A stretch of DNA of 38,402 nucleotides from Verrucomicrobiota bacterium (GCA_034440155.1 JAWXBN010000032.1:1-38402); one strand, 5' to 3'. Counted from the first letter of the stretch, positions 4,620 to 37,229 are shown. The notes: generated by a model from the sequence alone, not told the origin. Made by a program: numbers and translations.

Positions 4620-5990
4620 ATGCTTTCAGCCTTTATTAATTCATTCAAAATTCCTGAGCTACGCCAGAGGATATTTTTTACCTTAGGGGTAATCGCTCTG
4701 GTTCGTTTTGGAGCAGCGATTCCTGCTCCTGGGGTGGATGCTTCTATTTTAGCCCACTATTTTGAACAGGTTAATAACCAGACATCGAGCAGTGTCGTCG
4801 CTTTATTTAATATATTCAGTGGTGGCGCACTTGAGGCCTGTGCGGTATTTTCATTGGGGATAATGCCTTACATTAGTGCATCGATTATTATACAGCTTTT
4901 GACAGCTGTTTATCCGCGCTTAGCAAAAACTGCCAGAGAAGAAGGCGGACGTGCAAAAATAACACAATACACGCGTTATTTAACATTAATTCTTTGTCTT
5001 TTTCAGGGAACATTACTCGCACATGGCTTTGCAAACCCAAAATCAAATCCCTTTTTACCTGGCATTGATGCAACCATACAACAATATGGGCCTCTCGTAG
5101 CTAACCCCGACTTTTTCTTTTATTTCAGCTGTATCATGACACTTACGGCAGGTACGATGTTGCTGATGTGGTTTGGAGAACAAATCACTGATAAGGGAAT
5201 TGGACAGGGTATTTCCGTCATTATTACTATCGGTATTTTGGCACGTTTACCTGCGGCAATTACACAATCCTATCATTTCTTTTCTGATAAATTTAATCCC
5301 GTCATTATTGCTATTCTCTTATTATTTCTGTTTGGAGTGATCGCTGGTATCGTGGCTGTTACTTCTGCAGAGAGGAAAATACCTGTGCAATTTGCAAAAC
5401 GTATGGTGGGAAGAAAGTTGTATGGCGGCCAAACGACTTTTATGCCGCTGAAAGTGAATTATGCAGGGGTGATGCCGATTATCTTTGCACAGGCTATTCT
5501 GATGTTTCCTCAGACATTCCTGATGATTCCGGGACTTCAAAAGCTGCCCGGTTTCCAAGAGTTAATGGGAATGTTAAATCCCGGAACCGTTCTGCATGTC
5601 CTGCTATATGGTATCATGATTTTCTTCTTTTCCTATTTTTGGGTTTCGACACAATTTAACCCCACACAAATCGCGGATGATTTGAAAAAGAATAGCGGAT
5701 ATATTCCCGGAGTTCGTCCAGGTAAACCGACGGCTGACTTCCTTGACTTTACCATGACCAGATTAACTCTTGCTGGCGCAGCCTTTTTGACCATTATTGC
5801 CATTCTTCCTGAGATGGTGAATTATAATCTGAAAGTATCATTTTTAGTGGCTCAATTTTTTGGAGGCACCAGTCTTTTGATTTGTGTCGGTGTTGTATTG
5901 GATACGATGAGACAGGTCGAGACATTCCTGCTTCAACGCCATTATGACGGTTTTTTGAAAAAAGGAAGACTCCGGAGCCGCCAGTCGTAA
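4620..5990 (+). CDS. secY: Protein translocase channel subunit SecY
   Basis: This 456-residue, very hydrophobic protein has the ten-helix layout of SecY. Recognisable parts are the N-terminus (FKIPELRQRIFFTLGVIALVR), the plug-proximal FNIFSGGALE, the PYISASIIIQLL segment of helix 2, and the cytoplasmic loop RKLYGGQTTFMPLKVN. SecY forms the inner-membrane channel with SecE and SecG and works with SecA for export. Its place at the end of the spc operon, before map, is standard. Confidence 0.98.
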   Translation: MLSAFINSFKIPELRQRIFFTLGVIALVRFGAAIPAPGVDASILAHYFEQVNNQTSSSVVALFNIFSGGALEACAVFSLGIMPYISASIIIQLLTAVYPRLAKTAREEGGRAKITQYTRYLTLILCLFQGTLLAHGFANPKSNPFLPGIDATIQQYGPLVANPDFFFYFSCIMTLTAGTMLLMWFGEQITDKGIGQGISVIITIGILARLPAAITQSYHFFSDKFNPVIIAILLLFLFGVIAGIVAVTSAERKIPVQFAKRMVGRKLYGGQTTFMPLKVNYAGVMPIIFAQAILMFPQTFLMIPGLQKLPGFQELMGMLNPGTVLHVLLYGIMIFFFSYFWVSTQFNPTQIADDLKKNSGYIPGVRPGKPTADFLDFTMTRLTLAGAAFLTIIAILPEMVNYNLKVSFLVAQFFGGTSLLICVGVVLDTMRQVETFLLQRHYDGFLKKGRLRSRQS

Positions 5991-6029
5991 GACGTGGATC
6001 CGAGATGTTTTATTAAAAGGTTTTTGATA

Positions 6030-6803
6030 ATGATTCCGATCAAGAATGAGCGAGAAGTTCAATTCATGAAGGACTCATGCAAGACAGCGGCACTGATCCG
6101 AGATCGACTTGCACAGGAAGTGAGGCCTGGAGTGAGTACACGTGAGCTTGACGATCTGGCTCGTGAGTTGATTGCCAAAGCTGGAGGTAAAAGCCCATTT
6201 TACGGTTATGGAACTAGAAAAAAATTTCCAGGTCACATCTGTGTTTCTGTAAATGAAGAGGTCGTACATGGTATCGGTTCGGACAGACGTTTGCAGCTTG
6301 GGGATATTGTGAAGTTGGATGTTGGAATAATCCTCAATGGATGGATAGGTGATACAGCGATAACAGTCCCGGTTGGTATGGTGACATCAGAGGTTAATCA
6401 CCTGATGCATGTGACTTTGCAATCCCTTTATATTGGGATTGACCAAGCGAGGGCGGGTAATCATGTCCACGATATAGGAGCAGCGGTTGATCGTTACGTT
6501 TCGGAAAATAAATGTGCGGTTGTCAGAGAATTTGTTGGACATGGTGTAGGAAAAAGGTTGCATGAGGAGCCTCAAGTTCCAAATTTTGGCAAACCAAAGA
6601 CGGGAGCCCGCCTAAAGCCTGGTATGACATTAGCGATTGAGCCGATGGTTAACCTAGGGACGAGTGAGGTAAAAATCCTCTCGGATGGATGGACAGTAGT
6701 AACGGCAGACAAAAAAGCGTCTGCACATTTTGAACATACGGTTCTGATTACAGACGGCGAACCTGAGATTTTGACATGGACCGAAAGAATGGCATTGAAA
6801 TAG
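6030..6803 (+). CDS. map: Methionine aminopeptidase, type I
   Basis: The enzyme removes the initiator methionine from new proteins. From the ATG at 6030 it is 257 residues, and AAAAGG at 6015-6020 supports that start over the in-frame ATG at 5994, which would add 12 residues. The five metal ligands of the pita-bread fold are visible in order: Asp in KLDVG, Asp in GDTAIT, His in VGHGVG, Glu in AIEPMV and Glu in HFEHTVL. The substrate-binding His lies in EVVHGIG. The gene overlaps infA by 28 bases. Confidence 0.96.
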   Translation: MIPIKNEREVQFMKDSCKTAALIRDRLAQEVRPGVSTRELDDLARELIAKAGGKSPFYGYGTRKKFPGHICVSVNEEVVHGIGSDRRLQLGDIVKLDVGIILNGWIGDTAITVPVGMVTSEVNHLMHVTLQSLYIGIDQARAGNHVHDIGAAVDRYVSENKCAVVREFVGHGVGKRLHEEPQVPNFGKPKTGARLKPGMTLAIEPMVNLGTSEVKILSDGWTVVTADKKASAHFEHTVLITDGEPEILTWTERMALK

Positions 6804-6994
6804 CTGGGCGTGTATTGGATGTAATGAATGAACGCTTGGCGGAAATTGAATTTCCTAATCAACATAAGTTGGTCGGTTTTATCGAACCACCTGATATGGA
6901 AAAGTTTAAAAATAGGCTTGTGCAAGGAGCTCAAGTTATTGTAATATGTTCCTCTTTCGACTTTTCGAAAGGACGAATAATAAAAATCGAATGA
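6776..6994 (+). CDS. infA: Translation initiation factor IF-1, divergent
   Basis: This is a 72-residue protein of exactly IF-1 length. It aligns end to end with the OB fold: [21 protein letters not shown] at the start and [10 protein letters not shown] at the end. Many otherwise near-invariant residues are changed, including the central HIS/GKMR region, which here reads [12 protein letters not shown]-1 binds the A site of the 30S subunit during initiation. The start codon lies inside map (28-base overlap), and the position between map and rpmJ is the typical infA slot. Confidence 0.88.
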
Positions 6995-8774: not shown

Positions 8775-9794
8775 ATGCCAGTTCGTTTAGGTCGTTTTGA
8801 GATGCCGAAGCGTCTCGTTAAAGATGAAGAAAATCCTTCAGAAAATTATGCCAAGTTTGTCGCGGAGCCCTTTGAGGCTGGATATGGGCATACGATAGGA
8901 AACTCACTCAGACGTGTTCTCTTGTCTTCTCTGGAAGGAGCTTCAATTGTAAATGCAAAGATTGAAGGAGCTCAGCATGAGTTCTGTACAGTTCCCGGAG
9001 TGGTAGAGGATGTAGTCGAGATCATTATGAACCTTAAAAAAGTTCTATTTTTGATCCATGACCGTGAAACTAAGAAAGTAACGATTTCCGTAAATAAGGA
9101 TGGAGAAGTGACTGCTGCGGACTTCCAATGCCCCTCTAATATCGAGGTCGTTAATCCTCACCAACATATTTGCACACTCGACCGTAAACAAAAATTTGAA
9201 GCAGAGTTTGAGGTTAGTGTCGGACGTGGGTACATGAGTGCGGATGAAAACAAATTTCCGGATATGGCGATTGGGGTTATTCCTGTAGATGCGCTTTTTT
9301 CACCCGTACGTAAAGTAAAGTACAGTGTTGAAAATTGCCGTGTCGGACAACGGACAGATTATGACAAGTTAATTGTGGAGGTGTGGACTGATGGACGTAT
9401 TACACCTGAAGATGCTTTAACACAATCATCGGCAATTCTCAGACATCACTTGGATGTGTTTGTTGATTATAATAATACCGAAATTGAATTTGAAGAAGCG
9501 TCAGCTCCTGCATCTGAAGAAGAAAATAAACTCAAGAAGATACTCATGATGAGTGTTAACGAGATTGAACTCTCAGTGCGTGCTGCAAATTGCCTTAATA
9601 ATGCCAATATTACAACTGTTGGCCAATTAGCCATGAAGTCTGAGGCTGAAATGCTCAAGTACCGTAACTTCGGTAAAAAATCCTTGAATGAAATCAAGGA
9701 TAAACTCAAAGAGCTCCAATTAGGATTGGGAATGAAATTTGACAACTCTCTTGTTGAAGCGATTAATGCGGCGACAATGGGGCAACAACGATAA
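8775..9794 (+). CDS. rpoA: DNA-directed RNA polymerase alpha subunit
   Basis: The 339-residue alpha subunit has both domains. The N-terminal dimerisation domain contains FEAGYGHTIGNSLRRVLLSSLEGA and PGVVEDVVEIIMNLK. The C-terminal domain (from about residue 255) contains LSVRAANCLNNANITTVGQL and YRNFGKKSLNEIKDKL, the part that binds UP elements and activators. A Glu/Ser-rich linker joins them. AAAGGAG before the ATG is a strong ribosome-binding site. Confidence 0.98.
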   Translation: MPVRLGRFEMPKRLVKDEENPSENYAKFVAEPFEAGYGHTIGNSLRRVLLSSLEGASIVNAKIEGAQHEFCTVPGVVEDVVEIIMNLKKVLFLIHDRETKKVTISVNKDGEVTAADFQCPSNIEVVNPHQHICTLDRKQKFEAEFEVSVGRGYMSADENKFPDMAIGVIPVDALFSPVRKVKYSVENCRVGQRTDYDKLIVEVWTDGRITPEDALTQSSAILRHHLDVFVDYNNTEIEFEEASAPASEEENKLKKILMMSVNEIELSVRAANCLNNANITTVGQLAMKSEAEMLKYRNFGKKSLNEIKDKLKELQLGLGMKFDNSLVEAINAATMGQQR

Positions 9795-15921: not shown

Positions 15922-16956
15922 ATGAACTCACTTGAAAGAATCCAATCTGTCATGACAGGACAGATCCCTGATCGTGTGCCGGTTTGCCTGCATAATTTCT
16001 TATTGGCCTGCCATGAGGCCGGGATTCCTGTGGATCAATACCGCCTCAATGCTCGCTTGATTGCTGAGGTTCATCTAAAAGCATTGGAAAAATACGAATA
16101 TGATTGTGTCTTGATTGATCTCGACACAACCATGGCCGCCGAGGCAATGGGAGCTGTATCCGAGGTCGCTCCGAATGGAGTAGGCAGTATCCACGGGACC
16201 TTGCTCCGCTCATTGGACGAAGTCAAAAAGTTGAAAGTATTAGACCCATACAAAGACGGTCGTATCCCGGTATTGCTGGAGTCTATTCATATCCTCAAGG
16301 AAAAGCTCGGGGGAGAATTTGCAATCAGGGGAAATTGTGACCAGGGGCCGTTTTCTCTCGCCGCACTCCTGCGGGGGATGAATGACTTCATGATGGACTT
16401 GGCCGATGATCCCGATCATCCCGCCATCCGTGATCTTCTGGAAATAACCTATCAAAGCCATCTGAAGATCCATGAGGCTGTCCATGCGGCGGGAGCCACC
16501 ATGACTTCCCTTGGGGATAGTGTTTCTGGCCCTGATGTCCTTTCACCAAAAATGTTTACTTCATTTGCGCGGGGTTATCATGAAAGGCTTTTGAAGGATT
16601 TATCTGATCGCGGTATATTTACCGTGATACACATTTGCGGGAATACGACCCGTATTTTGGAGCAACTTGCACAGTACCCATTTTGCGGATTTGAATTAGA
16701 TTACAAGACCGATTCCGCTAAGGCGAAAGACTTGGTCGGAAAAGACCATGTGTTACTCGGCAATATCGACCCGAGCTCGATTCTGGCATTTGGCACTCCA
16801 GAATCAGTGGCGGAGAAAACACGCGAATTGATTACGTTATGGAAGCCCGGTGGAAAATTTATCCTGAATGCTGGTTGCGCTATTAATGCAAATACACCCT
16901 CGGATAATCTTTTATCAATGATGAGAACCCTCAGGCAGGAAGGACTTTATGCATAA
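15922..16956 (+). CDS. MtaA/UroD-family cobamide methyltransferase (second copy)
   Basis: This 344-residue protein is a clear but distant paralogue of the gene at 14061, with MNSLERIQSVMTGQIPDRVP at the start. The zinc-binding set is His237-x-Cys239 (VIHICGNT) and Cys319 (LNAGCAI). The conserved LLGNIDP is also present. It begins directly after the DUF1638 stop and overlaps the next gene by eight bases. Two such proteins in one cluster suggest either two acceptors or donors, or division between methyl transfer to the carrier and transfer from a second substrate. Which one serves MtaC is not decided by sequence. Confidence 0.83.
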   Translation: MNSLERIQSVMTGQIPDRVPVCLHNFLLACHEAGIPVDQYRLNARLIAEVHLKALEKYEYDCVLIDLDTTMAAEAMGAVSEVAPNGVGSIHGTLLRSLDEVKKLKVLDPYKDGRIPVLLESIHILKEKLGGEFAIRGNCDQGPFSLAALLRGMNDFMMDLADDPDHPAIRDLLEITYQSHLKIHEAVHAAGATMTSLGDSVSGPDVLSPKMFTSFARGYHERLLKDLSDRGIFTVIHICGNTTRILEQLAQYPFCGFELDYKTDSAKAKDLVGKDHVLLGNIDPSSILAFGTPESVAEKTRELITLWKPGGKFILNAGCAINANTPSDNLLSMMRTLRQEGLYA

Positions 16957-18472
16957 TCCCCAGAAGTATTTGATTAAACTCATGCCGATGAATAAGACCC
17001 TCGAATATTACGAGGGAGAATCTTTACAAGATATCCTCTTTGTTGAAGGAGTGGAGTTTCCTTGTGGTGGGCGTGGAAAATGTAAGGGCTGCCGAGTCAA
17101 GGTGACCGAGGGAAATATCCCTGCCACGGATATTGAAGCACAAACCCTCTCCCCGAAAGAATTGGAGGAGGGATGGAGGCTTTCATGTAAGGTCAAAATC
17201 TCAGATGAGGTGACACTAGAGTTGGCACAATGGGAGGCAAAAATCCTGACTGACGATACGCAATTTGCTTTTATCTCAAAAAAAGGTCTCGGTATTGCCG
17301 TTGATCTGGGTACGACGACCTTGGTGGCACAGCTCTTAGACCTCCAGACAGGTAATGTCTTGGCGGTGAAGTCTGCCTTGAACCCCCAAGCCCGCCACGG
17401 CGCAGACTTGATGAGCCGCATTGATTTTTCTGTGACCCAAGGAAAACAAAAAATCCTCCAGGAACTCATTCATAAAGAAATAGGAATTCTCATTGTAGAG
17501 GTTCTCAATGATGCAAAACAGGATGCCGACAACCTTGTGGAAACGGTGATCGTCGGCAATACCGTGATGCATAATCTTTTTTGCGGGATAGACCTGACCC
17601 CGATGTCTGTTTACCCATTTGAACCCATTAATGACAGCCTCGTGGTGATGACGGCTGAGGAGCTGGGTTGGACATTTGCAAGTCAGTCTAAAGTCCTTTT
17701 CCTGCCTTGTCTTGGCACTTTTGTGGGGAGTGACATTCTCGCGGGGGTACTGGCTACCGAAATCTATTTGAAAGACAAAATAAATGTCTTGATCGACTTG
17801 GGCACCAATGGGGAGATGGTCGCTGGTAATAAAGACCGTATGATCTGTGCTTCCACAGCAGCTGGGCCAGCTTTTGAAGGGGCGAGAATATCCATGGGGA
17901 TGAGGGCTTCGACAGGGGCGGTGTCAGAGGTTACTATCGAAAATGGGAAATTAAATCCACGAGTGATTGGAACTGGGGCGGCTCGTGGGATATGCGGAAG
18001 TGGCCTTGTAGATGTGGCTGCGGGAGCTTTGGAGCTGGGATTAATGAACTACCGCGGCAAAATCCAATCAGGGGACGAAATGCCGCTGGTGGATAATGTA
18101 GTCGTCACTCAGACGGATATTCGTGAGCTTCAGCTCGCCAAAGGGGCCATTGCTGCAGGTGTCAAAATCCTTCTTGCTCAACTGGGTAAAACCTATGACG
18201 ACGTGGATAAACTTTATTTAGCCGGTGCTTTCGGGAATTATATAAACCGGTCTAGTGCTGAAAGGATTGGATTAATTCATTTCCCTCCAGAGCAAGTAAC
18301 CCCAGCAGGTAATACTGCTCTTCTAGGAGCAAAGCGAGCACTCTTCAGGCCTGAAAATGAGGATGGCTCCTATGCCATGCTCCGGAAAAAAATCGAACAT
18401 CTCACCTTGAGTTCTGTGCCAGAATTCCAAGACATTTATGTCGATGAAATGTTTTTTCCTCAAGAAGACTAG
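16949..18472 (+). CDS. Reductive activator of corrinoid proteins ([2Fe-2S] plus ASKHA ATPase)
   Basis: This 507-residue protein has an N-terminal plant-type ferredoxin domain with cluster ligands Cys39, Cys45, Cys48 and Cys80 (CGGRGKCKGC...LSC). A linker and a DUF4445/ASKHA ATPase domain follow from about residue 112 (GIAVDLGTTTLVAQL, then IDLGTNGEM, STAAGPAFEGA, GICGSGLVD and YLAGAFGNYI). Proteins of this design (RACo and related activators of O-demethylases) use ATP to reduce accidentally oxidised Co(II) back to Co(I). It overlaps the preceding gene by eight bases and completes the methyltransferase set. Confidence 0.92.
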   Translation: MHNPQKYLIKLMPMNKTLEYYEGESLQDILFVEGVEFPCGGRGKCKGCRVKVTEGNIPATDIEAQTLSPKELEEGWRLSCKVKISDEVTLELAQWEAKILTDDTQFAFISKKGLGIAVDLGTTTLVAQLLDLQTGNVLAVKSALNPQARHGADLMSRIDFSVTQGKQKILQELIHKEIGILIVEVLNDAKQDADNLVETVIVGNTVMHNLFCGIDLTPMSVYPFEPINDSLVVMTAEELGWTFASQSKVLFLPCLGTFVGSDILAGVLATEIYLKDKINVLIDLGTNGEMVAGNKDRMICASTAAGPAFEGARISMGMRASTGAVSEVTIENGKLNPRVIGTGAARGICGSGLVDVAAGALELGLMNYRGKIQSGDEMPLVDNVVVTQTDIRELQLAKGAIAAGVKILLAQLGKTYDDVDKLYLAGAFGNYINRSSAERIGLIHFPPEQVTPAGNTALLGAKRALFRPENEDGSYAMLRKKIEHLTLSSVPEFQDIYVDEMFFPQED

Positions 18473-19363: not shown

Positions 19364-20305
19364 TTACCGCGATAAGTCGAGCATTCTCTCAATGGGCACC
19401 AAAGCTTTTTTCCGGATTTCTTCATTCATGATGATTTCAGGGCGCAAATTGCGCAGAGCATCGCGGAGTTTTTCAGGGGTATTCATTTTCATGAAACGGC
19501 AATCTGCACAGGCACAGTGATCGGTCGGGCCGGGAATGAATTTTTTATGAGGGATTTCACGTTCAAGCCGGTGAAGCATCCCGCTTTCGGTGACGATAAT
19601 GAATACGTCCGAAGCATTATCCTTGCAAAAGTGGACCATTTTTTCAGTGGAACAAATCTCGTCGGCCAAGAGGCGGACGGCGCGGGTGCATTCTGGATGG
19701 GCGACGACCGGGGCAAGGGGATACTCAGCCCGGATACGGGAGATACTTTGATGGGTGAACTCCACATGGAGATAACAATTTCCCTGCCAGTAGCGCATTT
19801 TGCGCCCGGTTTTCTCTGTGACCCATTCCCCGAGGTTTTGGTCCGGCACAAAGAGGATTTCCTTGTCAGCCGGGATACTGTTAACGATTTTCACAGCGTT
19901 CCCACTCGTACAAATCACATCACTGAGTGCTTTGACTCCGGAGGAACAATTGATATAGGCCACGACGTAAAGTCCGGGATTGTCTTTGAGATAGGTTTCC
20001 AGTTTATCGGCAGGACATGAATCCGAGAGTGAACATCCCGCATCAATATCGGGTAAGATCACGGTTTTAGAGGGGTTAACGATTTTAGCTGTTTCTGCCA
20101 TGAAATGCACACCGCAAAAGGCGATCACATCGGCATTCGTCTCTTTGGCCTTATAGGAGAGCCCCAATGAATCGCCGACAAAATCAGCGACTTCCTGTAT
20201 TTCCTTTACCTGGTAGTTATGGGCAAGGATGATCGCGTTACGCTCCTTTTTGAGAGCGAGGATTTCTTCCTGTACGGATGTTAAACGGCTAATGGATGTG
20301 ACCAT
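19364..20305 (-). CDS. nadA: Quinolinate synthase A
   Basis: This 313-residue enzyme condenses iminoaspartate with dihydroxyacetone phosphate to give quinolinate for NAD synthesis. It uses a [4Fe-4S] cluster. Likely ligands by alignment to the E. coli protein are Cys91 (AGCSLSD), Cys177 (WQGNC) and Cys269 (CACADC). Other signatures are RNAIILAHNYQ, VRFM-like GVHFMAETAKI, and the C-terminal ALVPIERMLDLSR. nadB and nadC are not in the window. Confidence 0.95.
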   Translation of the reverse strand: MVTSISRLTSVQEEILALKKERNAIILAHNYQVKEIQEVADFVGDSLGLSYKAKETNADVIAFCGVHFMAETAKIVNPSKTVILPDIDAGCSLSDSCPADKLETYLKDNPGLYVVAYINCSSGVKALSDVICTSGNAVKIVNSIPADKEILFVPDQNLGEWVTEKTGRKMRYWQGNCYLHVEFTHQSISRIRAEYPLAPVVAHPECTRAVRLLADEICSTEKMVHFCKDNASDVFIIVTESGMLHRLEREIPHKKFIPGPTDHCACADCRFMKMNTPEKLRDALRNLRPEIIMNEEIRKKALVPIERMLDLSR

Positions 20306-20362: not shown

Positions 20363-20644
20363 ATGAATGTGATCCGTTTTCGTTACTGTACCCAATGCCA
20401 TTGGATGCTCCGTTCTGCTTGGATGGCTCAAGAACTCCTTACGACATTCCCCACGCAAATTGCGGAAATGATTCTCGAACCCTGTACAGGGGGGATTTTC
20501 GAGATTTGGCTCGGGGATGAAATGATCTGGGAGCGTAAACGTGACGGGGGATTCCCGGACATCCGTATCCTTAAACAAATGGTTAGGGACGCAATTTGCC
20601 CAGAGGCTGATCTCGGGCATGTCGATCGGGTCAAAAGAAAATAA
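20363..20644 (+). CDS. SelW/Rdx-family thioredoxin-like protein, Cys form
   Basis: This 93-residue protein matches the Rdx (SelW/SelT/SelH) family: RFRYCTQCHWMLRSAWMAQELL at the start and FEIWL..EMIWERKRDGGFPDIRILKQMVRD at the end. The redox motif is Cys9-x-x-Cys12, so there is no selenocysteine. Its activity in bacteria is not well established; a thiol-redox role is inferred from the fold. It is divergent from nadA (57 bases) and convergent with lspA (6 bases). Confidence 0.85.
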   Translation: MNVIRFRYCTQCHWMLRSAWMAQELLTTFPTQIAEMILEPCTGGIFEIWLGDEMIWERKRDGGFPDIRILKQMVRDAICPEADLGHVDRVKRK

Positions 20645-20650
20645 GGGGAA

Positions 20651-21136
20651 TTATCCAACAGGATCGGAGGATGGCTTCTTCTCATGATGGTGTGTTTGCC
20701 AGGTCATGAGGATATAAAGGCTCACACCGACGCAAATTGCGCTGTCGGCAATATTAAAATTTGGCCAGACGTAGGAACCGAAGATGAATTTAAAGAAGTC
20801 AATGACCCCGCCGATCCTGAGACGGTCGACCATATTACCCAAGATACCCCCGACAATCAGTCCTCCCGCAAATTGCTGTAGGCGGTTTGTTCCAAAAAAG
20901 TCTTTCCGGAAAAGGAAAAGGATCACCAGTACCACAAGGGCAAAAATGCCCAGAAGCCAGCTTTTACCTTGGAAAATACCAAAAGCCGCCCCGGTATTAA
21001 TGACGTATTCCAAGTGGAAAAAGCCGGGGATGACTCGGATATAATGATGCCCGTAATCAAGTAAATGGCTCATCCAAAGCTTCAAGGCTTGATCGGCAAT
21101 CAAAATGATCAGTGCTGTAATGAGGGGGATTTTCAT
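20651..21136 (-). CDS. lspA: Lipoprotein signal peptidase (signal peptidase II)
   Basis: A 161-residue inner-membrane aspartyl protease that cleaves the signal peptide of prolipoproteins. Four hydrophobic helices are visible. The catalytic aspartates are Asp104 (GNMVDRL) and Asp131 (FNIADSA), and NTGAAFG near residue 47 is conserved. It lies 56 bases downstream of ileS on the same strand, a very common pairing. The C-terminus is a short polar tail with HHH. Confidence 0.95.
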   Translation of the reverse strand: MKIPLITALIILIADQALKLWMSHLLDYGHHYIRVIPGFFHLEYVINTGAAFGIFQGKSWLLGIFALVVLVILFLFRKDFFGTNRLQQFAGGLIVGGILGNMVDRLRIGGVIDFFKFIFGSYVWPNFNIADSAICVGVSLYILMTWQTHHHEKKPSSDPVG

Positions 21137-21192: not shown

Positions 21193-24051
21193 CTAAGCAG
21201 TAGGTGCTACTCGGGACGAGAAATATTCCACCGCCTCCACATCGCGTGAAGTCAGGTCGGGGTATTTCAGATTCGTGCCCACGGAGCGGTCATACTTCCA
21301 TGAACGTGCACATTTTTGGGCGACTTGGGTGGCCGGGGTGACTTTCACCGTTTCAGCCGCGTCAGCTGGCAGGAGTTTAAAATCCGACACGATGATGAAT
21401 TCCGCAAAGGCATCTTCTTTTCCGGCGAGCAAATTGCGTTCGGCATCGTCTGAGGGTTTGTATTCTACCCACGCATCAATGGCTTTACCGATTGTTTTGG
21501 CCGCACGGAGCTTTTCGAGCTCGGCAGAGATTTTCTCGCGGATTTTCAGGCGCAAGGCAAATTTCTCCTCGAGATTAGTGTCGATGAGGTCTTGCCGGGC
21601 TTCAGGGAAAAGCTGGAGGTGAACACTCTCCCTTGAGATATTTTCCGGGGATACGGACTCTGCTGTATTAGAAATATAGCCCCACATTTCTTCTGAGGTG
21701 TATGGCATGATGGGGGCGATCAGGAGGGTGATCGCCTTTAATACCTCCAGCATGACCGTCTGGGTGGCCCTGCGCCGTGCAGAGTGGGGAATGTCGCAAT
21801 ACATGCGGTCCTTACTAATATCCACGTAAAGGGAACTCAGTTCGATCGTGCAGAATGAATTCACCAAATGATACACCTTGTGGAACTCATATTCATCATA
21901 GGCTTTGCGACATTCACCGATCAATGCCTGCAATTTGCTCAGGATATAGCGGTCGAGTTCGACAAAAGCGGCTGTTTCCGGAGCGATTTGCGCGGGGTTC
22001 AAGCTGAGCGAATCCTGAGCCTCATTGAAGTCATAGAGATTTGCATGGAGGATACGCAGGGTATTACGGATCGTGCGGTAGGAACCGCTCACATGTTTAA
22101 AAATCTCTTCTGACCAAGGGACATCATTCTGGTAATTCTCCGACGCCACCCACAAGCGTAGAATATCAGCCCCGTAGAGATTGATCATGCTCATCATGTC
22201 GATTGGTTTCTGGTAACCGGTTCCCGACTTTGAAAGTTTTTTCCCGTCGAGATCGACGACAAACCCGTTGGTTAACACTTCCTTGTAAGGAGCACGTCCG
22301 AGTGTTGCGACGGATAAAAGGAGGGAGGACTGGAACCACCCACGGTGTTGGTCGCTGCCTTCCAAGTACATGTCCACGGGGAATTTAATTTCCGGGTGGG
22401 TCTTTTCCACGGCGCGTTGGGATGAGCCTGAGTCGATCCAGACGTCGATCGTGTCGTTTTTCTTGGTCAGATTATCAGCATCGGGCAGGCCGAGTGTGCG
22501 GGCGAGCTGGGCAGGTTCACTAGCGAACCAGACATTGGTACCTTCCTTCTCGACCAAATCGGCGAGTTTGCGGATCGCGTCGGCATTGAGGACTCCTTTG
22601 CCTTCGGCATCATAAAAAGCGGGGAGAGGGACACCCCAAGTGCGTTGGCGGGAGATACACCAGTCACCCCGGGATTCCACAGCCCCGGAGATCCTGTTTT
22701 GTCCCCAGTCTGGAACCCATTTGACCTTCTTGATCTCGGACAAGGCTTTTTCTTTGAGGCCGGAGCCGTCGATCCTGATAAACCATTGCTCTACGGCGCG
22801 GAAAACAATCGGCGTTTTTGAGCGCCAGCAGTGGGGATAGGTGTGTTTGAAGAGTGCCTCATGATAGAGGGCTCCGGTAGGGATGAGCAATTTGTCCACG
22901 ATTTCACGGTTGGCGTCAAAGACATATTTGCCGACCAGCCAGTCGATACCGACTTCATCCGTAAATTTCCCGTAATCATTGACGGGAGAAATGACTCCCA
23001 AATGTTTACCGACATCATAGTCGTCTTTCCCGTGTCCGGGGGCAATGTGGACCAGTCCGGTTCCGGTTTCTGTCGTGACAAAATGATCACCGAAAAGAAT
23101 GGTTGATTCACGGCCTTCGAGGAAAGGATGTTTTGCTTTGCCGATTTTCTCGAGCGATTTGCCTTCGACCAGGGCGATTTGTGTGTAGGCCTGTGAGGGC
23201 TCCAGGGCGGCGATCTTTTCAGCGAGGGCTTTTGCGACGATGATCGCGTCCTTGCCATTAGACAAGACGGCATAATCAATATCCGATCGTGCCGCTATCG
23301 CGAGGTTTGCCGGCAAAGTCCAAGGAGTCGTCGTCCAGATCATCAGGGACACGGACAAATTGCGCAATTGCTCCAGACCGAGGGCTTCTGCAGCATTCGG
23401 GGTCGGGAACTTTACATAAATCGCAGGGGTCTGGTGGTCGAGGTATTCGACCTCAGCTTCAGCGAGGGCGGTCTGGGCACCCGTGCTCCAGAGAACAGGT
23501 TTTTGGCTCGCGTAAACCATGTCTTTTTCGACGAGATCGGCAAAAGTGCGGATGACCTCGGCCTCGTAGCGCGGGTCGATGGTCAGATAAGGATTGTCCC
23601 ATTCACCGAAGACACCGAGACGTTTAAATTGCTCCCTCTGGAGGTTAATATATTTCCGGGCATAAGTATCACAGGCCCCTCGGATTTCTGCCACGGACAT
23701 TGTACGAGCTTTGTTACCGAGGTCTTTGGTTACTTTGAATTCAATCGGGAGTCCATGGCAATCCCAGCCGGGAACAAAAGGGCTGTAGAATCCTGACATA
23801 TTTTTACTCTTCAGGACGATGTCCTTGAGTGTCATATTCAGCGCATGCCCCATGTGGGCGTCCCCATTGGCGAAAGGGGGACCATCGTGCAAGATGAATT
23901 TGGGGGAGTGCTTGCGTGCAGAAAGGAGTTGATCGTAAATTTTAGTCTGATTCCAGCGTTCGAGGAAGGAGGGTTCGCGCTTGGGTAAATCCGCCTTCAT
24001 GGGGAATTCAGTTTTCGGTAAGTTCAAGGTATCTTTATAATTCACTGACAT
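21193..24051 (-). CDS. ileS: Isoleucyl-tRNA synthetase with degenerate C-terminal zinc finger
   Basis: A 952-residue class I synthetase. The HIGH motif is HMGH in PPFANGDAHMGHALN, KMSKS appears as KKLSKSGTG, and the editing domain has TTTPWTLPANLA. In other bacterial-type enzymes the C-terminal finger has two CxRC pairs. Here only Cys914 of the first pair remains (CARSWKY), and the second pair reads TSRD (934-937). The start MSVNYKDTLNLPKTEFPMKADLPKREP matches the family. lspA follows on the same strand. Confidence 0.96.
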   Translation of the reverse strand: MSVNYKDTLNLPKTEFPMKADLPKREPSFLERWNQTKIYDQLLSARKHSPKFILHDGPPFANGDAHMGHALNMTLKDIVLKSKNMSGFYSPFVPGWDCHGLPIEFKVTKDLGNKARTMSVAEIRGACDTYARKYINLQREQFKRLGVFGEWDNPYLTIDPRYEAEVIRTFADLVEKDMVYASQKPVLWSTGAQTALAEAEVEYLDHQTPAIYVKFPTPNAAEALGLEQLRNLSVSLMIWTTTPWTLPANLAIAARSDIDYAVLSNGKDAIIVAKALAEKIAALEPSQAYTQIALVEGKSLEKIGKAKHPFLEGRESTILFGDHFVTTETGTGLVHIAPGHGKDDYDVGKHLGVISPVNDYGKFTDEVGIDWLVGKYVFDANREIVDKLLIPTGALYHEALFKHTYPHCWRSKTPIVFRAVEQWFIRIDGSGLKEKALSEIKKVKWVPDWGQNRISGAVESRGDWCISRQRTWGVPLPAFYDAEGKGVLNADAIRKLADLVEKEGTNVWFASEPAQLARTLGLPDADNLTKKNDTIDVWIDSGSSQRAVEKTHPEIKFPVDMYLEGSDQHRGWFQSSLLLSVATLGRAPYKEVLTNGFVVDLDGKKLSKSGTGYQKPIDMMSMINLYGADILRLWVASENYQNDVPWSEEIFKHVSGSYRTIRNTLRILHANLYDFNEAQDSLSLNPAQIAPETAAFVELDRYILSKLQALIGECRKAYDEYEFHKVYHLVNSFCTIELSSLYVDISKDRMYCDIPHSARRRATQTVMLEVLKAITLLIAPIMPYTSEEMWGYISNTAESVSPENISRESVHLQLFPEARQDLIDTNLEEKFALRLKIREKISAELEKLRAAKTIGKAIDAWVEYKPSDDAERNLLAGKEDAFAEFIIVSDFKLLPADAAETVKVTPATQVAQKCARSWKYDRSVGTNLKYPDLTSRDVEAVEYFSSRVAPTA

Positions 24052-24223: not shown

Positions 24224-25429
24224 ATGAGTGGGAGCAGGCAGGCAGTCATTTCTAGTCAAAACCAGCCTTATTACTCTTTGGCTGTCAAAGAACCTTTCCG
24301 GATTTTATTTATTCTTGGGTCATTAATAGCCGTTTTCGGCATCATGCTCTGGCCTTTGAACCACTGGGGTGTCATTGGATTTTATCCGAATATTGCTCAT
24401 GCCCGGATCATGGTAGAAGGTTTTTTGGGGTGTTTTGTCATTGGTTTTTTGGGTACGGCCCTACCGAGGATTCTTGATGTAGAGCAGTTAACAGTCTTTG
24501 AAACGCCGATTTTTGCCCTTTTGATGATTTTTGTCGTGGCGCTCCATTTCCTGCAGAAAACGTTTTGGGGTGATATTCTTTTTGCGGTGACATTCAGTGG
24601 CTTCATGATGGCTTTACTTGTGCGGGCGATCCTGAGGAAGGATATTCCTCCTCCGGGGTTTATCTTGGTGCCTGCGGGATTAGGCTCCGGGGTAATAGGG
24701 GCATTCATTCTGGCAATCGGTCAGGTGAGTCCGCCCGAACCATTTTTATACCTTTTTGCACAGTTACTCCTTTACCAAGGTTTTTTGCTTTTGCCGGTGA
24801 TGGGGATCGGGGCTTTTCTTCTGCCGCGGTTTTTTGGAGAGGTCAGTAAACATAACTTTCCTGAGTCAATGGCAGTTCCTCCCGGATGGATGGGCAAGGC
24901 CTTGGTGTCGGGTTTGGCCGGAGGCCTTGTGATCGTGAGTTTCGCCATTGAGGCCGGGGGGCAAATTGTCTGGGGCTGCCTTTTGAGGGGAGCCGTGGTT
25001 CTCGCTTATTTCCTGATGGAGATGAATTTACTCCAAAACTGGAAAGCCCGGGGGACTTTGGCACTGTCATTGCGCATAGCTTTAATTTGTTTTCCTGCGG
25101 GGTTATTTGCTGTGGCGAGTGCCCCGTTGCACCGCGTGGCGCTTTTACATGTATTTTTTATGGGAGGTTTTTGCCTGCTATGCTTTACCGTGGCTTCGCG
25201 AGTGGTGATGGGGCATTCAGGCCATTCCCACCTGCTCTCAGGCCGGCTCAAACCAATGATCTTTTTCTTGGTAATGCTGATCTTGGCCTTATTATGCCGG
25301 GTAAGTGCAGATTTTATCCCAGAGGTACGACTTTCGCATTATGATTATGCCGCTATTCTTTTATCAGGAGGGATATTGGTTTGGTTAATGGCATATTTGC
25401 CTTTGATGAAAATGGAGGAACCCAAATAG
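24224..25429 (+). CDS. nnrS: NnrS family membrane protein
   Basis: The 401-residue protein has about twelve hydrophobic helices. NnrS hallmarks are HARIMVEGFLGCFVIGFLGTALPR near residue 60 and, near the C-terminus, LLHVFFMGGFCLLCFTVASRVVMGHSGHSH. Conserved His residues in these segments bind heme and copper in studied members, which protect cells against nitric oxide. It is followed six bases later by a truncated globin gene, so the pair is likely one NO-response operon. It is divergent from ileS. Confidence 0.88.
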   Translation: MSGSRQAVISSQNQPYYSLAVKEPFRILFILGSLIAVFGIMLWPLNHWGVIGFYPNIAHARIMVEGFLGCFVIGFLGTALPRILDVEQLTVFETPIFALLMIFVVALHFLQKTFWGDILFAVTFSGFMMALLVRAILRKDIPPPGFILVPAGLGSGVIGAFILAIGQVSPPEPFLYLFAQLLLYQGFLLLPVMGIGAFLLPRFFGEVSKHNFPESMAVPPGWMGKALVSGLAGGLVIVSFAIEAGGQIVWGCLLRGAVVLAYFLMEMNLLQNWKARGTLALSLRIALICFPAGLFAVASAPLHRVALLHVFFMGGFCLLCFTVASRVVMGHSGHSHLLSGRLKPMIFFLVMLILALLCRVSADFIPEVRLSHYDYAAILLSGGILVWLMAYLPLMKMEEPK

Positions 25430-28725: not shown

Positions 28726-29292
28726 TTACCCTTTTGAGGGGGATTTGGAGACAATAACGGAAGCGGGGCGGAGCAATTTGCCTTTGAGCATGTAGCCTTT
28801 GCGTTTCTCAAGGATCACGGTGTCCTCGGGATATTCATCCGAGTGCTCCTGTGAAATGGCATCATGGAAATTGTGGTCAAAGGGTTGGCCAAGGGCGGTA
28901 ATTTCCTCGAGCCCGTCTTGTTTAAGGTTCTGCTTGAGCTGGCCGTAAACCATTTTGATCCCATCCTTGATGGCTTGGACATTGTCGGTTAGATCCATCG
29001 ACTGGAGGGCGAGTTCGAAATTATCCAGCACAGGGAGCAAAGCTTCGAGGATGGATTCATTCGCGTACTTGAGCGCATCGATTTTTTCTTGGGCCAAACG
29101 TTTCCGCAGATTATCCATGTCGGCGATCAAACGGAGGTTCTTGTCCTGGAGTTCATCGGCGAGCGCAGATTTCCTGAGGAGATCTGCGATTTGCTCGGGG
29201 GTCAGGTCGATGGTGTCCGGGGTGCCCGTTTCGACTGGTTTATCGGCATCGGTGGGTATAACATCAGGTTTTTGTTCGGTATTTTCGGACAT
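28726..29292 (-). CDS. grpE: Nucleotide exchange factor GrpE
   Basis: This 188-residue protein has an acidic N-terminal tail, a long coiled helix (LRLIADMDNLRKRLAQEK is the typical block), and the C-terminal beta domain with HDAISQEHSDEYPEDTVI and KGYMLKGKLLRPASVIVSK. GrpE dimers release ADP from DnaK. It lies 26 bases upstream of dnaJ and six bases downstream of an RsbU phosphatase gene, so the set is probably one operon. Confidence 0.95.
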   Translation of the reverse strand: MSENTEQKPDVIPTDADKPVETGTPDTIDLTPEQIADLLRKSALADELQDKNLRLIADMDNLRKRLAQEKIDALKYANESILEALLPVLDNFELALQSMDLTDNVQAIKDGIKMVYGQLKQNLKQDGLEEITALGQPFDHNFHDAISQEHSDEYPEDTVILEKRKGYMLKGKLLRPASVIVSKSPSKG

Positions 29293-32227: not shown

Positions 32228-33076
32228 TTAAAATTGTTTTCTGAGGCGTTCGATCACCGATTGTTGGAAATTCTCGATTTTTTCCGAGATAAACTCGACT
32301 ATGTCGAGGGAGTCATTCTCGATTAAAGAGGATAGATCCATCGCGAACTCCACCTCCGAGGCCGTATCGGCATGATGACTTTCCAGATAAGTGGCATTAG
32401 CCCGTTTGCGTCCGAGGGTGGCCAGGTCGTAACGTTTCCCGCCGGCTATTTGAGAGTCGAAAACCCCCATCATGGCATTCATCAAGTGATCGAATCCACT
32501 GACATTGAGTAGGACTTTTTCCTTATCGTCGAGCCAATCGATATTGCGCCAGACTTCACAACCGTAGAGCTTTTCCGGGCGTTGCTCCCGGGGCAATTTG
32601 CGCAGGGCCGAGATGACGGGGATCACCACGCCGAGGTGGGTGTCATGTTTGTCGGCGAGGTTATGGGTATAGATCACTCCGGGAGTGGAGGCGCAAATCA
32701 AGCGGGATATGTCATCCACGAGATCGGTATTCAGGCGACCTTTGATTTCCGGGCTGGGGTAGTCCAGCTGCACAATGGCACTGTACTCTCCCATGATCGC
32801 CGCGCGGCGTTGCTCTTCCTTGCGGATAAAGCGGATATCATCATTGGTGTAATTTGCGTAGCGCTCAGAGCGGGAGGAACCGCTCCCGTCGGTCACGGTC
32901 ACTCCGGTGAACCATTTTTCCGTCTGATGAAAACACTCTTTGATCCCGTGGAAACACATGAATTCCAGATCATCCTGGTGGGCTCCAATGCCCATGTGTG
33001 TGGTACGGGAAAAGGCTTTGTCTTCCGGCGTATTGTCCGGAATAAAAATCTCGGCAGTGTTTTTATAGAATTTCAT
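32228..33076 (-). CDS. PIG-L family deacetylase
   Basis: From the ATG at 33076 the protein has 282 residues; the frame extends to 33112, adding 12. The PIG-L/LmbE zinc motif is GAHQDDLEF (His33, Asp35 and Asp36 in this numbering), with the distal His in DKHDTHLGV. Family members deacetylate N-acetylglucosamine-containing small molecules. Its place between an ROK-like gene and nagB suggests it removes acetate from GlcNAc, GlcNAc-6-phosphate or a related sugar before NagB acts. The substrate itself is not established. Confidence 0.88.
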   Translation of the reverse strand: MKFYKNTAEIFIPDNTPEDKAFSRTTHMGIGAHQDDLEFMCFHGIKECFHQTEKWFTGVTVTDGSGSSRSERYANYTNDDIRFIRKEEQRRAAIMGEYSAIVQLDYPSPEIKGRLNTDLVDDISRLICASTPGVIYTHNLADKHDTHLGVVIPVISALRKLPREQRPEKLYGCEVWRNIDWLDDKEKVLLNVSGFDHLMNAMMGVFDSQIAGGKRYDLATLGRKRANATYLESHHADTASEVEFAMDLSSLIENDSLDIVEFISEKIENFQQSVIERLRKQF

Positions 33077-33130: not shown

Positions 33131-34531
33131 TTAGTTTAAATTCGGCAAACTCGCCGCGGCGACGGCTTGGCCGACCCGGCGGCTTTTTTCGTCGGGTACC
33201 AGTAAATGAATCTTTCCATCTAATCCCGTGAACTCCGCCGCCAGCACCTCTTTAGCCTTGCTGATCATGATATCCCCGCCGGTCCCCGTCGTGACGCGTC
33301 CGAGGATCAGGACATGGCGATAATCGTAAAACTCCGTATACAGTGCGAGGGTGTACCCGAGGCAAATGCCTATAGCCTCGTAAATATTGGCGCAATTTGC
33401 GTCACCCATTTTCATGATTTCTTGGACTTGCTTCAGTCGTTCGGGCACTGAACGGGATTCGTCCAGAGCTACCCCGGCGAGCTTGGCCAAACGTATGACC
33501 CCTTGCTGCGAAAAATATTGTACGCCACAACCGATGTCTCCGCTCCATTCATCAGGAGCGGCATTCAGGCTCAGGTCCACCGGCACAAAGGCTAATTCAT
33601 TTAGCCAGCCTGTCAGCAGACCTTCCGCATTCAGGTAACCCGCTGCGAGACTCGATCCCATCGCGATGCCGAGCATGGCATTCTCCCCGAGACTGAGTGA
33701 ACCCGCCAGTGCGGTCACGTCCCCGTCATTAGCGACTTCGACGGGTACACCCCATTCTCGGGCCAGTTGCCCGAAAATTCCCGCGACCTTTTGGGCGAAA
33801 ACATCATCTGGTACTGCCCGGAAAAGGGAGGCGGCCCGGATCCGGTTATTGATAATGACACCGGCGGAACTCCCCCCGATGGCATCCACACGGGGCATTT
33901 TCCCAGCCGCTTCCTTCAAGCCTTTGGTGATATGCTCATAATGGAAATCGGGGTTGGGTTCATCCTTGGGATTCCAGGGGAATTCATCAGCCCAGACAGA
34001 TACGCCATCGATCACGGCGGAGACTTTATAATCGCTGGCCCCGAGGTCGAATCCGATCCGGCATCCTTTTAGGTGCCCGCCCAGGGGTGAGGATTCGGTT
34101 TTTTCGGGCGGGACAGATTCAGGCGCACAATGGACTACCTCAAAAGTGTGCTCGTAAATTTTACCCATAAAATGGTAATCAAATGCACGGGCTCCTGTGG
34201 GTGAGTAAATTGTTTTGATCTCACGGGCGAGTTCTTCCGGTCCACCGATAATGACTTTCCAGCCTCCACGCGCCCAGAGCAGGAATTTGATAATGCGCTC
34301 CACGAGGCGAATGGTGTCCGGCCACAGGGCCGAGTCTGGAGGAGCGATTTGCATCTCATAACGGCTGACCAGTCCAGCTTCCCGTTCCAAACCGATAACG
34401 AGTTTCTGGTGACTGGGGAATTTGCCCACAGCTGCGCGGTAGTTTTTGATTCCCGTGATCATCGGGCGGAAATCAGGATCGATTGACGGGAGTATCCCCG
34501 GAGCGGCATCCAATAATAGGCTTTCAGACAT
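33131..34531 (-). CDS. ROK-family-like protein with N-terminal extension
   Basis: The protein has 466 residues. The ASKHA sugar-kinase fold begins only at about residue 158 (IGFDLGASDYKVSAVIDG), with GGSSAGVIINNR and the putative catalytic Asp269 in EVANDGDVTALAG. The first ~150 residues are an extra domain without a recognised family. The ExGH and CGxxGCxE zinc motif of typical ROK kinases are largely lost (NELAFVPVDL and GDIGCGVQYFSQQG). It may be a divergent sugar kinase or a sugar-sensing protein. It heads the - strand cluster with the deacetylase and nagB. Confidence 0.75.
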   Translation of the reverse strand: MSESLLLDAAPGILPSIDPDFRPMITGIKNYRAAVGKFPSHQKLVIGLEREAGLVSRYEMQIAPPDSALWPDTIRLVERIIKFLLWARGGWKVIIGGPEELAREIKTIYSPTGARAFDYHFMGKIYEHTFEVVHCAPESVPPEKTESSPLGGHLKGCRIGFDLGASDYKVSAVIDGVSVWADEFPWNPKDEPNPDFHYEHITKGLKEAAGKMPRVDAIGGSSAGVIINNRIRAASLFRAVPDDVFAQKVAGIFGQLAREWGVPVEVANDGDVTALAGSLSLGENAMLGIAMGSSLAAGYLNAEGLLTGWLNELAFVPVDLSLNAAPDEWSGDIGCGVQYFSQQGVIRLAKLAGVALDESRSVPERLKQVQEIMKMGDANCANIYEAIGICLGYTLALYTEFYDYRHVLILGRVTTGTGGDIMISKAKEVLAAEFTGLDGKIHLLVPDEKSRRVGQAVAAASLPNLN

Positions 34532-34691: not shown

Positions 34692-34928
34692 ATGAAAATC
34701 ACTGTTGAATTTCTTGAATCTGAAATAGCTGAAATTTGTAAATTTACGGGTGAACGTAAAAAAGGACCCGCAATCCGTAAACTGGTGAATGATGCCCTGA
34801 TGGTAAAAAGGCGGGAGCAAATTGCGGGAAAATTCATTTCCGGTGAGTGGGGTGTGGAGTTAAAGGGATTTGAAGAATCCCGGGCCATTGACCGTCTGCG
34901 TGAGTCCAAGCACGGAGAAAATCCGTAG
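34692..34928 (+). CDS. VapB-type antitoxin
   Basis: The 78-residue protein has an N-terminal DNA-binding stretch (MKITVEFLESEIAEICKFTG...KKGPAIRKLVNDALM, a likely ribbon-helix-helix) and a charged C-terminus (FEESRAIDRLRESKHGENP) of the sort that wraps a PIN toxin. Its stop is ten bases before the ATG of the PIN gene. The gene contains one GCAAATTGC copy. Antitoxin identity rests on size, arrangement and the partner. Confidence 0.8.
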   Translation: MKITVEFLESEIAEICKFTGERKKGPAIRKLVNDALMVKRREQIAGKFISGEWGVELKGFEESRAIDRLRESKHGENP

Positions 34929-34938: not shown

Positions 34939-35346
34939 ATGGCAAATTTAATTGATACAAGCGTGTGGATCGATTTCACTCGGTCGAAATCATCCCGAGT
35001 CCTTAAAAACTTTATTGCCCCGTATATTTTGGACACTAATGCATTTTTGTCTGAACCCGTTATTTTCGAGGTGATGAGACATGCGAGTGCCGCAGAGTTT
35101 AAACCCCTTGAGGCAATGACGGCGACCTTTCCGGTTTTATCGACCCCTTCTGATCTGTGGAAAAGGGCGACCTCGCTGGGGCGTACACTCAGGGACAAGG
35201 GTTATGTGGTGGGCTCCATTGATTTAGTCATTGCGGCATTGGCTTCTTACCATGGGGCACAGATCATTACCTTTGACCAGGATTTTCAGAAAATCGCCCT
35301 GTGTGAGAAGACCGTGAAAGTAAATTTATTAAAGCGGCCAAGTTGA
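34939..35346 (+). CDS. PIN-domain ribonuclease toxin VapC
   Basis: From the ATG at 34939, preceded by AGAGG, the protein has 135 residues, normal for VapC. The four acidic residues of the PIN site are visible: Asp6 (LIDTSVW), Glu (EPVIFEVMRH), Asp (GSIDLVIAALA) and Asp (IITFDQDF). VapC toxins cut tRNA or rRNA unless held by VapB. The open frame extends upstream to 34870 inside vapB, but the internal start fits the family. Confidence 0.9.
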   Translation: MANLIDTSVWIDFTRSKSSRVLKNFIAPYILDTNAFLSEPVIFEVMRHASAAEFKPLEAMTATFPVLSTPSDLWKRATSLGRTLRDKGYVVGSIDLVIAALASYHGAQIITFDQDFQKIALCEKTVKVNLLKRPS

Positions 35347-35387
35347 CTTCTTTTGGCTTAAAAAATAATCTGAAAAATAGATTATCG

Positions 35388-35415
35388 GGAACTTTCTGGA
35401 TAGTCCGGGGGTCTT
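35388..35415 (+). promoter_or_regulatory. 16-bp direct repeat, right copy, overlapping an ECF-like promoter
   Basis: The second copy of GGAACTTTCTGGATAG is at 35388-35403. GGAACTT (35388-35394), 16 bases, then GTCTT (35411-35415) looks like an extracytoplasmic-function sigma promoter. It lies 45 bases ahead of the secreted DUF4139 gene. Confidence 0.5.
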
Positions 35416-35459
35416 CATCTAGCATAAAAACAATGAGTTTTGATTTAAAACAAAGGAAC

Positions 35460-36968
35460 ATGATGAATAGAACAAAAGTTTTAGCGTTTACGGGGGTGTT
35501 ACTTGCGCAATTTGCTGCGCTGGCTGTCGCCGAGAATACATCACTGACGATTTATAATCAGGATTTTGCCGTAGTCCGGGATAAAGCTGTCCTCGACCTC
35601 AAAGAAGGGGATAATATCATTGGATTCAACGAGATCGCAGCCACCCTCGAACCCCAGTCGGTGATCCTCCGTGATCCGAAGGGTGAGGCCAAGCTCCAGA
35701 TTCTCGACCAGAGTTTCCGTAATGATCCGGTGACCCAACAATATCTCCTTTCGCTTTTTGAAGGTAAGACCATCCAGTTCCAAGCCATCCGTCCCGACGG
35801 TAAAATCGAGTTGATTGATGGGAAAGTCATTCGCAGCGGGTACATGGCTCCGCAGAGACCGGATCGTTACGGGAATTACCGACAGCCTAATGGTTTTGGT
35901 GCTGGTGAACCCGTGATCGAGGTCGCGGGGAAATTACAGTTTCAATTGCCCGGAATGCCCCTTTTTCCGTCATTAGGCGATGATACTATCCTTAAACCGA
36001 CATTGAACTGGACATTACGTTCCAGTAAGGCCGGAAAGATTGAAGCCGAGATCGGGTATCTCGCCACGGGGCTTTCGTGGCAGGCGGATTACAATGTCGT
36101 CTCTCCTGAGACAGGGGACCAGTGCGACATCATCGGATGGGTCACTTTCCAGAACCAGTCTGGGAAAACTTTCCGCGATACGAAGGTTAACCTCATGGCG
36201 GGTGATGTCAGTCGGGTACAGGAAAATAGGAATAATGATATGGGGGGAAGGGAAATGAAGCTCGGAACAATGTCGGCACCAACTGACGGCAATGTCACTC
36301 AGAAAGATTTTGACGATTTTAAACTCTACACACTCCCTCGCCCGGTCACGCTGCGGAATCAGGAAATGAAACAAGTCGAGTTTGTGAAAGCCACCAATGT
36401 CAAAGCTCCCCGATTTTACGTTTATGACGGGGTCCTACCCGAATACGGCTCCTCTGCGTGGTGGCTCCATAACGGGTTATCGACAGAACCGAGTTACGGC
36501 ATACCCACCAATAAAAAGGTATGGATTTTCCGTGAATTTGAAAATAAGGAGGACAATGGACTCGGGATTCCTCTGCCCAAGGGCAAATTGCGCTTCTACC
36601 GCCGCGACACGGACGGTTCCCTCCAATTCATCGGGGAAGATATCATTGATCACACTCCGAAAAATGAAAAGGTGCGGGTTTATCTGGGTAACGCCTTTGA
36701 TCTCGTAGGGGAACGCAAACAAACAAATTTCACCGTGGACTCCGGACGTAAAACCATGACCGAGACTTTCGAGATCACACTCAAGAACCGGAAAAAGGAG
36801 GCAGTGGAATTCCGCGTGGTCGAACACCTTTACCGTTGGAATAACTGGGAAATTAAAGACCCCTCCGATAAATTCGAGAAAACCGATGCCCGCACGATTG
36901 AGTTCAAGATCTCCGTCCCCGCCGACGGCGAAAAGAAGGTTGCTTACACCGTTGTTTATACGTGGTGA
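35460..36968 (+). CDS. Secreted DUF4139 domain-containing protein
   Basis: From the ATG at 35460 (AAGGA just upstream; a second ATG follows at once) the protein has 502 residues. A signal peptide (MMNRTKVLAFTGVLLAQFAALAVAE) suggests export. The mature part begins TSLTIYNQDFAVVRDKAVLDL, a beta-rich domain, and ends with the DUF4139 closing motif KKVAYTVVYTW. The function of the family is unknown; it may act at the cell surface. A candidate ECF-type promoter precedes it. The frame extends upstream to 35343 but lacks a signal there. Confidence 0.87.
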   Translation: MMNRTKVLAFTGVLLAQFAALAVAENTSLTIYNQDFAVVRDKAVLDLKEGDNIIGFNEIAATLEPQSVILRDPKGEAKLQILDQSFRNDPVTQQYLLSLFEGKTIQFQAIRPDGKIELIDGKVIRSGYMAPQRPDRYGNYRQPNGFGAGEPVIEVAGKLQFQLPGMPLFPSLGDDTILKPTLNWTLRSSKAGKIEAEIGYLATGLSWQADYNVVSPETGDQCDIIGWVTFQNQSGKTFRDTKVNLMAGDVSRVQENRNNDMGGREMKLGTMSAPTDGNVTQKDFDDFKLYTLPRPVTLRNQEMKQVEFVKATNVKAPRFYVYDGVLPEYGSSAWWLHNGLSTEPSYGIPTNKKVWIFREFENKEDNGLGIPLPKGKLRFYRRDTDGSLQFIGEDIIDHTPKNEKVRVYLGNAFDLVGERKQTNFTVDSGRKTMTETFEITLKNRKKEAVEFRVVEHLYRWNNWEIKDPSDKFEKTDARTIEFKISVPADGEKKVAYTVVYTW

Positions 36969-37229
36969 GTAGGGCAGGGTGACTGGAAAGGGGACAGATA
37001 AACGAGCGGGGAAGTGAGCATCTTGCCGCTTGATTGATTCGGAAAATGGTAATGTGGCTGGGAGCACGCTTTTGCATCGGGTGAGCAATTTGCTCCGCAC
37101 AGCCCCGGAGCAGGAATATCCTTTTCATCCCCCCCCCCGACAATTCCCTGATTACATGCCACAAACTGACTCGCCAACAAACGCTCCTCCAGACCACCGA
37201 TATGAACCAAATAATCTCAAATCTCAGCC

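Follow-up and report, generated by a model that had tools for sequence, protein, structure and literature searches.

The 9-mer GCAAATTGC is iterated throughout the genome of an uncultured Verrucomicrobiia bacterium at a level far above chance, and it behaves like a recognition word read at the DNA level. An earlier note on contig 32 of this genome (GCA_034440155.1, JAWXBN010000032.1, a stretch of 38,402 nucleotides that is analyzed whole and called the window here) reported 17 exact copies where about 0.3 would be expected, an excess of roughly 50-fold. All 17 positions were verified, as were the split between the strands (8 on + and 9 on -) and the extension of 10 of the 17 copies to GCAAATTGCG. 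Recomputed expectations ran from 0.3 (zero order) to 0.65 (fourth-order Markov model), giving a 26-55 fold excess.

The excess of GCAAATTGC is genome-wide in scope. Pattern searches of the whole 2.76-Mb assembly (132 contigs, 97% complete) found 1,522 copies (766 forward and 756 reverse), and seven copies (four forward and three reverse) of a letter-reversed control word. Base-by-base statistics were computed on 2.08 Mb of the genome, which contained 1,122 copies versus the 21 expected from a third-order Markov model (54-fold), with orders 0 to 4 predicting 15.8 to 32 copies. GCAAATTGC, which is palindromic except for its centre base, ranks first by a wide margin among over-represented 9-mers. 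Neither of the two outcomes that the earlier note had named as grounds for abandoning its claim was seen, as the genome-wide count is far from the Markov expectation and other A/T-centred 9-mers are not enriched to the same degree: among palindromes of the 4+1+4 form GCAAnTTGC has 1,221 copies, the runner-up has 288 and the median is 26. The density is one copy per 1.8 kb or about 550 per Mb (higher if near-misses are counted), and only two of the 120 pieces that are 5 kb or longer lack the word.

A consensus built from 1,120 aligned copies identified GCAAATTGC as the core of a dyad-symmetric site of about 19 bp, cc.GM-GCAA-W-TTGC-KC.gg. The flanking preferences are G at -2 (62%), A or C at -1 (67%), G or T at +1 (73%) and C at +2 (66%), followed by weaker outer preferences for C at -5/-4 and G at +4/+5, the dyad reaching +/-5 with graded weights. 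The centre base is A or T in 1,122 copies and C or G in 99, the C/G-centred (S-centred) form still being 14-fold enriched. Among the one-mismatch neighbours strong enrichment is otherwise confined to the end variants ACAAATTGC and GCAAATTGT (9-fold), and these enriched near-misses share the flanks of the exact word. The near miss that the earlier note reported at 24961 is of the GCAAATTGT class. Transition near-misses at positions 2-4 occur at 0.9-1.6 times expectation, at or near background, and the spacing variants GCAATTGC (15 copies) and GCAANNTTGC (14 copies) are not enriched.

The two halves of the site differ in tolerance. With the A-centred strand as reference, the TTGC half shows a 2.2-fold enrichment of changes and the GCAA half a 1.1-fold one (P=3e-15). 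Mirrored flank positions vary independently with no covariation, and hence the arms are not selected for mutual RNA pairing. An RNA hairpin or intrinsic terminator was rejected on these grounds: compensatory pairing of the arms was lacking and there was no excess of T-runs. The site would rather consist of two independently contacted half-sites, as expected if a dimeric protein reads it. The copies in the window, together with two enriched variants and a gene that holds two of the copies, are as follows.

5387..5395, - strand, word copy inside secY (TIGR00967)
9585..9593, + strand, word copy inside rpoA, encoding ANC
16662..16670, no strand, S-centred variant GCAACTTGC/GCAAGTTGC, of the class 14-fold enriched genome-wide, flanks kept
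17260..17268, - strand, word copy inside a RACo-like ASKHA-domain gene
19444..19452, + strand, word copy with the full CGCAAATTGCGC extension inside nadA
20455..20463, + strand, word copy inside a SelT/SelW/SelH-family gene
20591..20599, - strand, word copy inside the same SelT/SelW/SelH-family (SelW-like) gene as the 20455 copy
20732..20740, + strand, word copy inside lspA (signal peptidase II)
20868..20876, + strand, word copy inside lspA
21193-24051, - strand, ileS, identified by family search
21429..21437, + strand, word copy inside ileS (gene on the - strand)
21930..21938, - strand, word copy inside ileS
24961..24969, + strand, end variant GCAAATTGT, of the class 9-fold enriched genome-wide
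28773..28781, - strand, word copy inside grpE
32593..32601, - strand, word copy inside a PIG-L family gene
33392..33400, - strand, word copy inside a 466-aa open reading frame without an assigned family
34817..34825, + strand, word copy inside a small predicted open reading frame (34692-34928) with no family match
35507..35515, - strand, word copy inside a DUF4139-like gene
36583..36591, + strand, word copy inside the DUF4139-like gene
37085..37093, - strand, intergenic word copy downstream of the DUF4139-like gene

The SelT/SelW/SelH-family protein (20363-20644, + strand, 93 aa) thus carries two copies in 282 bp.

Copies occupy all reading frames, as previously noted, and are also found between genes at similar density (0.52 per kb in coding DNA, 0.70 per kb in intergenic DNA and 1.1 per kb in convergent gaps). 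Within genes permissive frames are preferred and frame 0 is rare. At a given peptide, codon choice favours the word 9-69 fold over the prediction from codon usage, and the host tripeptides are themselves in 2-4 fold excess (QIA 502 versus 171 expected, QFA 257 versus 80 and ANC 63 versus 16). These two biases and the spread over all frames and intergenic DNA strongly support selection, as proposed in the earlier note, or drive that acts on the DNA word and not on the encoded peptides. The word is kept even at the cost of protein change, and the proteome is distorted at hundreds of sites.

Point substitutions in place create the words. All 80 related RpoA loci that were read encode the ANC tripeptide, mostly as GCCAACTGC or GCGAACTGC, and here it is coded by GCAAATTGC. 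NadC carries five words, and its alignment to solved homologues is ungapped at the words (the RpoA and NadC alignments had 13 to 80 members). Two of the four RuvA words lie in ungapped conserved blocks; the other two fall in C-terminal segments of low conservation, for which the alignment is uninformative. Given the ungapped alignments at the RpoA, NadC and two RuvA words, creation was by substitution, synonymous or not, and no sign of insertion was seen in the three alignments. Insertion of a repeat or of a miniature inverted-repeat transposable element was rejected, as no more than two copies share any 39-mer and there are no gaps at the NadC and RpoA words (RuvA being uninformative at two of four).

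Comparison with about 640 distinct genomes of the phylum, in partly overlapping sample sets, gave comparable enrichment in none. The maximum number of GCAAATTGC copies in 387 other phylum genomes plus 56 class relatives was about 144, in a 5.1-Mb genome, and the longer pattern GMGCAAWTTGC, which has 1,385 matches in the source genome, had 79 in the highest of 383 other class genomes. No genome searched was marked as belonging to the order of the source genome. In GTDB contigs, the RpoA proteins nearest to its own are about 72% identical and come from Verrucomicrobia metagenome-assembled genomes. A scan of viral contigs for a two-copy pattern matched at least 120 contigs; among those listed none had a comparable density beyond a selected pair. 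Among the genomes sampled the word is confined to the source lineage, which is isolated at the order level. The statement that no such word had been described in this bacterial group agrees with these genomes and with the open-access literature. There, the 12 best-ranked of 157 papers with the letters of the word, judged by title, did not concern it as an iterated genomic element, Verrucomicrobia and uptake sequences were paired only in a passing review, and the papers on highly iterated palindromes (HIPs) among the matches listed concerned cyanobacteria only.

In its behaviour the word resembles the iterated recognition words known as DNA uptake sequences (DUS), uptake signal sequences (USS) and HIP1, and it is an established member of neither group, uptake words or HIPs. 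The likeness drawn in the earlier note is apt as a functional analogy, whereas, as to membership, no methyltransferase partner of the HIP kind was found, and DUS/USS words are not palindromic (PMC1939737) but this one nearly is. HIP1 is an iterated palindrome with a palindromic extension (PMC4390886). HIP1 and the alternative HIPs (GCGATCGC and others) share with GCAAATTGC genome-wide iteration in genic and intergenic DNA, palindromic extension, restriction to a lineage, copy numbers in the thousands range and, the centre base excepted, a palindromic core far above Markov expectation. The Verrucomicrobiia word differs in being AT-centred and of odd length with a W centre, in belonging to another phylum and in density, which for HIPs is typically 1,000-2,000 per Mb (PMC4390886).

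With the Neisseriaceae DUS, which number 1,543-3,603 per genome (PMC3630211) and have the minor pilin ComP as receptor, the word shares the range of copy number and density, its occurrence within coding sequences, its enrichment in core DNA of long residence and the presence of type IV pilus machinery. DUS are asymmetric whereas this site is a dyad. With the Pasteurellaceae USS it shares a 9-bp core with weaker extended positions, a spacing of about one per 1-2 kb in genic and intergenic DNA and effects on protein sequence; USS are asymmetric whereas the extension here is symmetric. Chi and the FtsK-orienting polar sequences (KOPS) are likewise short over-represented words, but they are non-palindromic, strand-biased and modestly enriched, whereas this word is near-palindromic and 54-fold enriched. 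Its centre-base orientation showed no association with local GC skew, although this is a weak test of replication-strand tracking for a near-palindrome. The argument that balanced orientation speaks against Chi- or KOPS-like roles agrees with the missing skew link, but orientation is carried by one base pair only and its balance therefore says little on such roles.

The single most likely role is that of a self-DNA tag for natural transformation, a reading that we hold tentatively. A dimeric (or two-contact) DNA-binding protein would read the dyad site, and drive or selection on such recognition would spread and keep the word. The type IV pilus apparatus would preferentially bind and take up word-bearing DNA, and homologous recombination of the incoming DNA would copy the word across the genome. 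This role is favoured because transformation is the only known mechanism that spreads such words by drive without a benefit from each copy (the drive argument for uptake words is given in PMC1939737), and because the genome encodes the core machinery and methylation is ruled out within the limits of the assembly. ComEC and DprA are encoded, together with ATPases of the type IVa pilus (three of the PilT family and several PilB/GspE-like) and many prepilins. The three PilT/PilU-family retraction ATPases are at separate sites (L128:10236-11312 on +, L159:12443-13513 on - and L165:240-1301 on +), and two of the prepilin-like genes are a near-identical tandem (L123:12059-12673 and 12764-13378, - strand).

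The distribution of copies along the genome is also in keeping with a self-DNA tag. The densest genes include those for an OGG-like glycosylase, nadC, queG, ruvA, ribD, rsmI, xseA and leuS, while sensor kinases, an efflux pump and a Cas10 gene are among the long genes free of the word. An 18.4-kb contig with a type III CRISPR (clustered regularly interspaced short palindromic repeats) system has zero copies (P=5e-5 before allowing for its choice as the emptiest piece); it may have been acquired recently or mis-binned. Word-dense housekeeping genes and a word-free CRISPR contig would be expected if the word builds up only in DNA of long residence. The Cas10/Cmr2 gene of that contig (L137, contig 27, 5286-7895 on -) is type III-B-like. 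A second interspersed element, TGTAGGGCGACCGGCCCGGTTGCC-like, was also encountered. It is REP-like (resembling repetitive extragenic palindromes) and apparently mostly intergenic, with 65 copies of TGTAGGGCG in the 2.08 Mb and none of the element in the window; sites are on the - strand of L223 around 9352, 10024 and 10407 and in L212, L210, L186 and others.

Several observations weigh against a self-DNA tag. Bacteria that lack uptake specificity commonly have ComEC, DprA and type IV pili. No classical ComEA was found in the genome, and the one small helix-hairpin-helix protein found, on contig 67, lacks a clear signal peptide and makes an unconvincing ComEA. The earlier note had suggested a ComP-like pilin as partner, but no ComP- or FimT-like receptor was identified among the many prepilins. 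The known uptake words are asymmetric and not palindromic, whereas here a dyad extends to +/-5, albeit with halves of unequal tolerance. The word has no gene-terminus bias, whereas the USS of Pasteurellaceae do (PMC2346458). Word pairs at terminators, another suggestion of that note, were not borne out, as no inverted-pair terminators were found and T-runs were not in excess. The densest genes (OGG-like, RuvA, XseA) hinted at a preference for genome maintenance, an idea that was dropped when a motif-picked set of repair genes gave no clear excess once the density-picked genes were excluded. Finally, as regards turnover of the word, no word-bearing relative was among the genomes compared.

The dyad symmetry places an intracellular dimer site close behind the self-DNA tag. 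In this alternative, which is possible but doubtful, an abundant homodimer that acts in the nucleoid, in segregation or in recombination would bind roughly every 1-2 kb for architecture or repair, and selection on its function would keep the word. A dyad of graded, independent half-sites is the classical homodimer signature, and the presence of copies on either strand, within genes and between them, with no skew bias also fits. However, 54-fold enrichment of an exact 9-mer with distortion of the proteome is unlike the sites of known nucleoid proteins, none of which is known to force such an outcome. Moreover, the copies are overdispersed and mildly clustered (variance/mean 1.2-1.4), the best peak of helical periodicity is not significant given the number of periods tried, and word-free islands of 10-18 kb exist, a pattern unlike that of an evenly needed architectural site.

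It is unlikely that the word is of the HIP1 type as Elhai proposed for cyanobacteria, made or kept by the interplay of a DNA methyltransferase with mismatch repair. MutS and MutL are present by motif, and the iterated palindrome with palindromic extension is shared with HIP1 (PMC4390886). However, the DNA methyltransferase families PF01555, PF00145, PF02384 and PF02086, all of which matched in control genomes, had no match in the 97%-complete genome (loss through incompleteness being possible), and among 1,850 predicted proteins scanned for motifs there was no convincing DNA methyltransferase. Apart from RsmD, a single SPPY protein had a match to a methyltransferase family, and it is a TrmN-like RNA methyltransferase. 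The density of about 550 per Mb is also below that of HIPs. The lack of all four families in a bacterial genome of this completeness is unusual in itself.

Similarly improbable is a neutral bias, in which a mutational, repair or conversion process creates a word that has no function. Substitution at any permissive position, the dependence on permissive peptides and the rarity of frame 0 would all be expected of such a process. However, weak outer positions and halves of unequal tolerance in a 19-bp dyad point to binding, and the transition near-misses at positions 2-4 lack the halo expected from neutral decay. An artefact of ordinary composition, codon usage or a repeat family, for which no supporting point was found, is refuted by the counts (15.8-32 predicted by Markov orders 0-4 versus 1,122), by the unique flanks and by the lack of enrichment in relatives with similar genes.

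The kind of word that GCAAATTGC represents, one iterated for recognition as in the DUS/HIP class and not based on methylation, is much more certain than its role as a self-DNA tag. We consider it quite possible, if short of probable, that it represents a new class of self-tag: a dyad-symmetric, methylation-independent word with a dimeric receptor that arose independently in the Verrucomicrobiota. If true, this would be either the first DNA uptake signal that is palindromic or the first HIP that has no methyltransferase. Extreme genome-wide words are well described for two groups in the literature searched, the DUS/USS of two proteobacterial families and the HIPs of cyanobacteria, and for HIPs, whose function is still unsettled, a link to methylation has been drawn. 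As a third and independent case, from a distant phylum, palindromic like HIP1 and with no methyltransferase found, this word sets palindrome iteration apart from methylation, and what drives such words becomes a testable question. In this organism a DNA word rewrites protein sequence at hundreds of sites, and the same word provides a cheap signature for assigning contigs to an uncultured order.

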